22,165 nucleotides of DNA, taken from Chloroflexota bacterium. Its GTDB lineage: Bacteria; Chloroflexota; Anaerolineae; Promineifilales; Promineifilaceae. A program made the translations under genes and the position numbers. The notes beneath the pieces were generated by a model that saw only the letters and a program-made list of their open reading frames with translations, was not told the origin of the DNA and did not search any database. Positions 18,120 to 19,590 of the stretch are shown here, one piece after another. The stretch lies in the NCBI GenBank assembly GCA_008501785.1, contig QQUD01000716.1, positions 1 to 22,165 of the forward strand, written 5' to 3'. Numbering within the stretch: the stretch's first letter is position 1; each line of letters opens with the position of its first letter.

Positions 18120-18926
18120 TTAAGTAGGTGAGTGTCCTAGAGCATGAGATATTTGTTGAGCTGTGGCGCGTACAGCCGGAGAGAAACGGGCTTCCATCTC
18201 TTCACGGGAGAATTCGCCCGCAGATACAGAGATATTGACCCCACCTACAGCAATGGCATTGCTGTCCAGGATGGGAGCAGCGGTAGAACGCAGCCCTTTT
18301 ATCCATTCCTCATCATTAACTGAGTAACCAAGCTCACGAATACGAGCCAAATCTGCTTTCAAAGAAGCGCTGTCAGTTAGGGTGCTGGGTGTGTAGCGTT
18401 GGAGATATGCGCCGTCTAGTCGTTGGTTGAGTTCATCAGAGGGCAAAAATGCTAACATAGCTTTTCCCAAAGAAGCGCAATGGGCCGGAATACGAGACCC
18501 TAGACCAAGTACAACGCCGATAACTTCTCGGTTACGGACGCGATCTATGTATACGACATCCATTCCGTCCAATACGCTCAAGCTGACTGTTCTCTCCACT
18601 TCCTGGGATAGGCGTTGTAAATATGGACGTGCCACTTGCCTGAATTCCAGGCTAGAGATCGCCGTGAATCCAAGCTGCAATACTTTTAATCCTGGCCGGT
18701 AACGCTTGGTCTGCGGATCGCGTTCCAGGTAACCTGCTGTTTCCAAAGTGGAAACGATGCGAAAAGCAGTTGTTTTGTTAATGTTGCTGGCGTCTATGAT
18801 TTGAGTGAGAGATAGGGTCGGCGTTTCACGGTTAAATAATGATAGGACTTGCAAGCCGCGCGATAACGCTTCAATTGTGTAGGATGATTGTGTCACATCT
18901 TCCCTCGTGGTCACAGTTTGTTTCAC
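18120..18926 (-). CDS. IclR-family transcriptional regulator
   Basis: The protein has 268 residues. A winged helix-turn-helix (about 15-77, with SLTQIIDASNINKTTAFRIV) is followed by the effector-binding domain with the family signature IPAHCASLGKAMLAFLP (146-162) and a C-terminal AIAVGGVNISV segment. It begins at GTG 18926, directly after an in-frame stop. It is the first gene of the minus-strand catabolic cluster and is the obvious candidate for its control; IclR relatives such as PcaR and PobR govern aromatic acid pathways. A palindromic operator touches its start codon, which points to autoregulation. Confidence 0.93.
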   Translation of the reverse strand: MKQTVTTREDVTQSSYTIEALSRGLQVLSLFNRETPTLSLTQIIDASNINKTTAFRIVSTLETAGYLERDPQTKRYRPGLKVLQLGFTAISSLEFRQVARPYLQRLSQEVERTVSLSVLDGMDVVYIDRVRNREVIGVVLGLGSRIPAHCASLGKAMLAFLPSDELNQRLDGAYLQRYTPSTLTDSASLKADLARIRELGYSVNDEEWIKGLRSTAAPILDSNAIAVGGVNISVSAGEFSREEMEARFSPAVRATAQQISHALGHSPT

Positions 18927-18950
18927 TCAAAGAAACAAAGTTTCATTGAG
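18926..18950. promoter_or_regulatory. Palindromic operator at the iclR start (likely autoregulation)
   Basis: The 25-bp dyad reads CTCAA-n-GAAAC-AAA-GTTTC-n-TTGAG, with 10 of 11 pairs per arm. It spans the first base of the start codon to about 25 bp upstream, just downstream of the expected transcription start (about 18956). A repressor here would block transcription of the regulator and perhaps the cluster. Confidence 0.6.
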
Positions 18951-18962
18951 CAGAACTGCCAC

Positions 18963-18991
18963 AATTTAGCATAAAGGCAGAAATATGTCAA
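18963..18991 (-). promoter_or_regulatory. Promoter of the iclR gene and cluster
   Basis: On the minus strand there is a perfect -35 TTGACA (18991-18986) and a -10 TAAATT (18968-18963), 17 bp apart. The predicted start near 18956 gives a leader of about 30 nt carrying the operator. The -35 box is inside the left target-site duplication of the mobile element. Confidence 0.65.
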
Positions 18992-18992
18992 A

Positions 18993-19273
18993 TGTAAGCT
19001 TGGAAGATAAATGACGTATTTTCTTGGAAGCTATTTGTCATATAGTGTAATGATTACAATAAACACCTGATGACCCATGAAACCATAGCCTGTTCACACT
19101 TAACCTTATTTTGGGCTAAATTTATACGAATTGTATAAGCTATTTACGCCGTATCACATATACAAACTGTATAAGTAACAACGGACGTTTTGTGGCTAAC
19201 AAATTGGCCGAGAATAGGACCACTACGACAAATACCAAGCAAGATTTTACGACAAATAATTTCCAAGCTTACA
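18993..19273. mobile_element. 281-bp miniature transposon-like element (MITE), TGT...ACA ends
   Basis: Perfect 13-bp terminal inverted repeats (TGTAAGCTTGGAA ... TTCCAAGCTTACA); similarity extends to 21 of 26 bases. The flanks carry the direct repeat GTCAAA (18987-18992 and 19274-19279), a 5- or 6-bp target-site duplication. Four copies of CTTGGAAnnTATTTGTCGTA lie under the ends: 18999-19018 and 19023-19042 (plus), 19224-19239 (4 nt shorter) and 19248-19267 (minus), each pair 24 bp apart. There is no transposase gene inside. Ends with several binding-site repeats and TGT/ACA tips are known for Tn7/Tn5053 (TnsB/TniA) and IS21 groups; the group assignment is an inference. Confidence 0.8.
19123..19173. 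promoter_or_regulatory. Two TATAC-N5-GTATA palindromes in the middle of the mobile element
   Basis: TATACgaattGTATA (19123-19137) and TATACaaactGTATA (19159-19173), both followed by AAG, have centres 36 bp apart. They look like paired operator sites, but no matching regulator is identified. Confidence 0.45.
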
Positions 19274-19366
19274 GTCAAATGAGGTAGACTGTTGGATGAT
19301 AAAAGCAGTGATGCAAAACGGCCGTTTTCCCATACCGAAGTTTCCCTGACAGAATCATTCAAATCG

Positions 19367-19395
19367 TTGACAGTCGCCACCGCCTTTGTTACGAT
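19367..19395 (+). promoter_or_regulatory. Sigma70-type promoter of a small transcription unit
   Basis: A perfect -35 TTGACA (19367-19372), 17-bp spacer and -10 TACGAT (19390-19395). Predicted initiation is at about 19402-19403, which is the A of an ATG. Confidence 0.6.
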
Positions 19396-19402
19396 TTGGC
19401 CC

Positions 19403-19486
19403 ATGAATACGAATCTTGTGACACGAAACAATAATTTCGCCGCAGCCGCCGTACAGACATCACGTCTGGCGAATAGGGCTGCCTGA
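19403..19486 (+). CDS. Putative leaderless 27-codon ORF, or part of a small RNA
   Basis: The ORF encodes an Asn/Ala/Thr/Arg-rich peptide beginning MNTNLVTRNNNF and ending LANRAA. Its ATG coincides with the predicted transcription start of the promoter at 19367-19395, and the terminator at 19520-19552 follows 33 nt after the stop. I recognise no family. The frame also extends upstream to a TTG at 19292 (with GAGG 7 nt before), so a 64-residue version is possible. The unit could instead be a non-coding RNA of about 150 nt, since CGTCTGGCG (19463-19471) is exactly complementary to the terminator's 5' arm. No plus-strand gene follows. Confidence 0.35.
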   Translation: MNTNLVTRNNNFAAAAVQTSRLANRAA

Positions 19487-19519
19487 GTCACAAAAGCGAC
19501 AATTTAACCGGCAGATTCC

Positions 19520-19552
19520 CGCCAGACGGTGCTTCACCATCTGGCGTTTTAT
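19520..19552 (+). terminator. Intrinsic terminator
   Basis: Stem 19520-19531 with 19535-19546 (11 of 12 pairs, 3-nt loop) followed by TTTTATTT. It is oriented on the plus strand only; on the minus strand no T-run follows. Confidence 0.85.
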
Positions 19553-19590
19553 TTACTGTTGACGATTATGGGGATGAATCAGTTTGCGGA

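Follow-up and report, generated by a model that had tools for sequence, protein, structure and literature searches.

A 281-bp MITE with IS21-like paired end repeats in the promoter of an iclR gene from a probable Chloroflexota bacterium

The window, a 22,165-bp stretch of DNA, contains a MITE in the promoter of a regulator gene of a probable Chloroflexota bacterium. The 281-bp element is a genuine insertion of a non-autonomous mobile element, real but fairly ordinary. By its anatomy, with a 6-bp duplication and a 24-bp repeat period at both ends, it sits with the IS21 family. The reading we favour, at a probability of roughly 0.6, is that of a MITE of IS21 type that would have been moved in trans by IstA and IstB.

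Anatomy of the element

The element (Table 1) is AT-rich, with a GC content of 35% against 49% for the window. An earlier note on this DNA had described 281 bp with perfect 13-bp TGT...ACA ends and GTCAAA flanks, and its exact coordinates were reproduced. The terminal inverted repeat (TIR), TGTAAGCTTGGAA, is identical between the element ends at 13/13 positions and carries the TGT...ACA tips. Each end further holds two copies of a repeat with the consensus CTTGGAANNTATTTGTCGTA (18 fixed bases), and the period is 24 bp at left and right alike. These four copies in two inverted pairs, also claimed in the note, are the top four matches to the consensus in a scan of the window, the next best scoring 13/18. 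Tandem end repeats are unusual among MITEs. Compared whole, the arms are 74% complementary over 50 nt, and single-strand folding of the element gives z = -4.15.

Within positions 18900-19360, the TIR and the flanking duplication (TSD) together comprise 19 matched positions, and none of 40 sequences made by dinucleotide shuffling of this region contained a qualifying pair (TIR of at least 6 plus TSD of at least 5). Together with the window scan of the repeats, this rules out a chance origin of the TIR, TSD and repeats.

The element is short and non-coding, with no credible gene, and these features and its perfect TIR are those of a MITE. The lone ORF of at least 80 aa that overlaps it (19144-19491, minus strand, 115 aa) extends out of the element and is therefore no evidence for a gene. 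Among the matches listed from a search of 236 translated frames for a coding remnant there was only noise, tblastn matches were likewise at noise level and no istA/istB remnant was recognisable in the element, and no known RNA was found in it at Rfam gathering scores. Two ATAC-N5-GTAT dyads lie in its interior. They are the only two in the whole window, and two were present in 0 of 2,000 element shuffles; the pair may possibly represent candidate operator or resolution sites.

Table 1. Features of the element and of the adjoining iclR promoter, in window coordinates
Feature	Position	Strand	Evidence or remark
IclR-family regulator gene, adjoins the insertion	18120..18926	-	PF01614, PF09339; start codon uncertain
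GTTTC/GAAAC dyads, probable IclR operator	18920..18944	.	near iclR in 6/8 orthologous loci scanned
iclR promoter -10-like hexamer TAAATT, TG in front	18963..18968	-	promoter scan
iclR promoter -35 hexamer TTGACA	18986..18991	-	promoter scan; 5/6 bases inside TSD copy
TSD copy adjoining iclR, GTCAAA (minus strand TTTGAC)	18987..18992	.	single copy at L039 orthologous site
MITE, 281 bp	18993..19273	.	arms; absence from 11/11 orthologous loci
Left TIR TGTAAGCTTGGAA	18993..19005	+	perfect match
End repeat L1	18999..19018	+	15/18 to consensus CTTGGAANNTATTTGTCGTA
End repeat L2	19023..19042	+	17/18 to CTTGGAANNTATTTGTCGTA; 24 bp after L1
Interior dyad ATAC-N5-GTAT, copy 1	19124..19136	.	one of two in window
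Interior dyad ATAC-N5-GTAT, copy 2	19160..19172	.	36 bp from copy 1
End repeat R2	19224..19243	-	15/18 to CTTGGAANNTATTTGTCGTA
End repeat R1	19248..19267	-	18/18 to CTTGGAANNTATTTGTCGTA; 24 bp from R2
Right TIR	19261..19273	-	perfect match
TSD copy on side away from iclR, GTCAAA	19274..19279	.	sequence

Evidence for insertion

Orthologous iclR loci (L038-L048; 42-63% amino-acid identity) were drawn from genomes belonging to the class of an uncultured Anaerolineales bacterium, whose genome is G001 and includes L001. All 11 are without the element: blastn at E<=0.01 gave no match to it in these loci, and the best end match was 16/26. In the best orthologue, L039, the site is empty and CTCATTTGAC is present once. 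The site reads CTCATTTGACG, in which the hexamer doubled in the window (TTTGAC as read along the gene strand) occurs a single time; from this TTTGAC as far as the -10 region's TAAA, the window and L039 align without gaps. The element thus has both the TSD, GTCAAA on either flank, and the empty orthologous site of a MITE insertion. The earlier note had proposed a non-autonomous mobile element and had named iclR orthologues with no insertion and a single GTCAAA as the place to look. L039 is such a locus (TTTGAC is the reverse complement), and the 11 uninterrupted loci bear the proposal out.

Searches for further copies

A second copy, or a full-length DDE element with the same ends, had likewise been proposed as a target of searches; neither was found in plasmids, viral contigs or the sampled genomes. 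No plasmid matched the element at E<=1. Of 400 genomes from the order to which G001 belongs, 26 had short matches at E<=0.1; as no match looked like an end running from tip to repeat, these were taken as chance. Viral contigs gave 0 matches to the exact 23-mer end pattern and four to a single-repeat pattern (L034-L037), all lacking a further copy at a distance of 24 bp; the match in L034 falls within a coding frame. In two samples, of 56 and of 396 genomes, no genome contained a 26-mer match when up to 3 mismatches were allowed. No second copy or autonomous partner was found in the 400 + 56 + 396 genomes, samples which partly overlap and of which perhaps none is near the source organism. Literature on MITEs in Chloroflexota, or on MITEs with CAST or Tn7-like terms, held nothing on this element among the best matches. 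Since the element encodes no protein and showed no remnant, second copy or partner, the anatomy of its ends was compared with that of autonomous elements.

Comparison with IS21

IS21 loci (NF033546) were taken from plasmids and from two related orders, represented by 55 and 151 genomes. Because TG...CA or TGT...ACA tips were a requirement of the end searches, the first two bases of the IS21 ends are no finding. Pairs flanked by a duplication also ranked higher, and pairs whose ends resembled each other poorly, with duplications of 4-9 bp, were discarded as chance. Duplications were credibly readable in 6 of 45 loci, measuring 6 bp in five (L117, L121, L125, L145, L163) and 4 bp in the sixth (L113). 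In a panel picked among elements with readable ends, from which L170 (H48) was left out because a predicted resistance gene adjoins it, all 11 elements had one or both ends with a best direct-repeat period of 23 or 24 bp. Parts of PMC10122671 describe IS21 ends as carrying L1/L2 and R1/R2 repeats, of which IstA requires two complete ones, and give 5-bp repeats for IS5376; an excerpt of PMC3281130 gives duplications of 7-8 bp for a Paracoccus IS21.

The element shares with IS21 the TGT...ACA tips, two direct repeats per end, the 24-bp period and the 6-bp duplication read in five of six loci, and falls within the TG...CA tips and 4-8-bp duplications of the family. It differs in being 281 bp long without genes, against ~2.5 kb with istA/istB, and in its end sequence, which matches no IS21 tested. 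Over bases 4-26 in register, 40 comparisons with IS21 ends gave a mean of 6.6/23 and a best of 11, and 12 further comparisons (L163, L167, L169; six ends) a best of 6/23. An end sequence in common with a particular IS21, which the best score of 11/23 does not amount to, would be expected of the element's own partner and is not needed for the family. Among the mobilisers that the earlier note had considered (TnsB/TniA, CAST and IS21), the 6-bp duplication and 24-bp spacing fit IS21 and not the Tn7-like/TniA-type elements L068 and L070.

As the repeated ends and six-base duplication are most like those of IS21, the element most likely travelled on the enzyme of another element, as a fairly ordinary passenger. 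We infer mobilisation in trans, with an IS21-type enzyme as the mobiliser. The MITE would consist of both ends of an IS21-type insertion sequence that has lost its istA/istB genes. What each end would have kept, a 5'-TGT tip with a pair of transposase-binding repeats spaced at 24 bp, is what an IstA tetramer requires. An IstA/IstB pair coded elsewhere in the cell would then occupy all four repeats, bring the ends together and insert them into target DNA across a 6-bp stagger, in this case in the iclR promoter precisely at its -35 region. Repair of the stagger would double TTTGAC, so that the copy facing iclR would retain TTGACA, the -10 hexamer and the operator.

Alternative origins

We consider it unlikely that the element is a MITE of a TnsB/TniA transposon (Tn7-like or type V-K CAST-like), moved by a cyanobacterial-type TnsB that would bind TGTCGT-containing repeats in trans. 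This reading draws on end sequence. The 26-bp right end matches the presumed ShCAST end sequence at 18/26 positions in tip register; beyond the tip the match is 15/23, and 0.00014 of shuffles were equally good. The V-K-like ends compared were those of L160, L161, L162 and ShCAST, the Crinalium and Nostoc ends being real records. Cyanobacterial V-K-like ends gave a mean of 11.5/23 over bases 4-26, with a best of 14 (12 comparisons), and the best 10 of 66 end comparisons were all cyanobacterial or V-K-like, ahead of every IS21 or TniA end, in a comparison made after the fact and among mutually related cyanobacterial ends. Four additional Nostoc ends agree, at 8-14/23, and the likeness to type V-K ends named in the earlier note is real in register. 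The hexamer 20-25 bases from the tip is TGACGT and TGTCGT in the element, TGACGT and TGTCGC in L161 and TGTCAT in L160. Also shared are the TGT tip and a non-coding mini-form, since ~200-bp mini-elements with V-K-like ends occur on Nostoc plasmids.

Spacing and duplication argue the other way. V-K CAST insertions duplicate 5 bp, as stated in a portion of PMC9527255, whereas the element has 6 bp, and parsing its duplication as 5 bp leaves its ends unequal by one base. L068 and L070 likewise have 5-bp duplications, with best periods of 21 and 29 bp, respectively. The first repeat unit of the element is V-K-like in sequence, but its spacing is 24 bp against weak periods, ~19 bp at the left ends, in the Nostoc mini-elements, and the tip is TGTACA in most V-K-like ends. 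A Nostoc transposase query, itself an IS481/ExeA-type enzyme, matched in 0 of 392 genomes of the class at E<=1e-15. If the mobiliser were TnsB-like, the element would bear on the origin of CAST-type ends outside cyanobacteria.

Among 14 PF09299 (TnsB/TniA) loci in a related order, credible ends with duplications were found in L066, L068 and L070; end pairs at L072 and L076 were discarded as spurious, and no ends were found at the remaining nine. The best end pairs around the transposase of L161 lacked a duplication.

The mini-elements of Nostoc plasmids form a ~200-bp non-coding family whose V-K CAST-like ends mostly read TGTACAGTGAC...TGTC. Full-length copies lie at L161:12839-13037, L209:401-600 and L210:401-600, with partial copies in L162, L211, L212 and L213. 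The mini-element query matched 12 plasmid records, 3 of them over at least 80%, and no flanking 5-bp duplication was seen at the three full-length copies.

It is rather improbable that the MITE marks an unrecognised Chloroflexota transposase lineage that would combine a V-K-like core, TATTTGTCGTA, with a 6-bp stagger and a 24-bp spacing like that of IS21. If it exists, this lineage would be intermediate between IS21 and CAST TnsB in end architecture.

An origin from the group that pairs an IS481-like transposase with an ExeA-type ATPase, often with a serine recombinase, is quite improbable. L066, L173 and L175 have TGT tips (imposed by the search), 6-bp duplications that fit the element and, at whichever end is better, a best period of 22-23 bp. 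However, this period is not quite the 24 bp of the element, each of the three has a weak repeat at one end at least while the ends of the element are equally good, and the end sequences differ, with a best of 11/23 for L066 (labelled TniA within the 66-comparison set) and of 8 for L173 and L175. Five TniA-type plasmid loci were considered (L172-L176): L173 and L175 were retained, the pairs of L172 and L176 were discarded as poor, and no ends were found at L174. The retained elements and that of L066 (L066:7896-11256, L173:4806-11721, L175:646-4324) encode an IS481-like DDE transposase and an ExeA/TniB-type ATPase, with a serine recombinase additionally in L173 and L175; the group has 6-bp duplications, against 5 bp in the TnsB/TniA elements L068 and L070.

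An IS66-type MITE is very improbable. An alternative parse of the element gives GTAAGC tips and a duplication of 8 bp, TGTCAAAT/AGTCAAAT, and four IS66 elements of a related order (L197, L202, L207, L208) have GTAAC tips and 8-bp duplications; but the re-parsed duplication agrees at 7/8 and requires one mutation, and in those four elements the tip is different and tandem end repeats are absent. Of 19 listed IS66 loci, 13 were examined, with clear ends in these four, none in eight and ends discarded as spurious in L196.

That no mobile element is present, the sequence being a regulatory inverted repeat upstream of iclR, would suit its intergenic promoter region and its good folding, but this is extremely improbable and is contradicted by the empty orthologous sites (11/11 loci without it, a single TTTGAC in L039), and no shuffle gave a perfect TIR plus duplication.

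The iclR promoter and its neighbourhood

The MITE lies directly upstream of the predicted -35 hexamer of iclR, and the duplicated six bases are the predicted -35 region. A promoter scan of the window placed TTGACA-17-TAAATT at the orthologue promoter position. As it gave 4 promoter-like sites where 2.1 were expected in the stretch, the scan is weak by itself, and the promoter argument therefore rests on conservation. TTGAC occurs at the matching place in most orthologues, and a pattern search found a -10-like hexamer at promoter spacing in 8 of 11. In L045 and L047, TTGAC with a -10-like hexamer was also seen by eye farther upstream; L041 has no TTGAC at that place. The GTTTC/GAAAC dyads are probably the regulator's own operator. 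Because it is the -35 region of the putative iclR promoter that was doubled, TTGACA is retained, and iclR expression would have survived the insertion, with a near-neutral effect.

The insertion is clean and apparently recent, with a readable empty site, and offers a worked example of promoter entry without destruction, the duplication itself preserving the putative -35 region. Some IS21 insertions cluster near promoters, according to parts of PMC10122671. The element resembles prokaryotic MITEs (Correia, MITEAba12 and others) in being short and non-coding, with inverted ends and an intergenic place near a promoter. MITEs of this kind, Correia and MITEAba12 among them, are named in portions of a 2024 review (PMC10969869), whose main text has 0 occurrences of IS21. 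A literature search for a MITE with complete two-repeat IS21-type ends found none among the best matches, and such MITEs seem to be little described.

On the far side of the element, a promoter-like TTGACA-17-TACGAT lies between iclR and uspA (19367-19395, plus strand). A 27-codon ORF, which would be leaderless if real, begins ~8 bp farther on and is followed by a hairpin and then by TTTTATTT (19403-19555, plus strand); the ORF and hairpin were read by eye, and the hairpin is missing from the terminator scan output. This unit is possibly a putative small-protein gene or a short-transcript unit.
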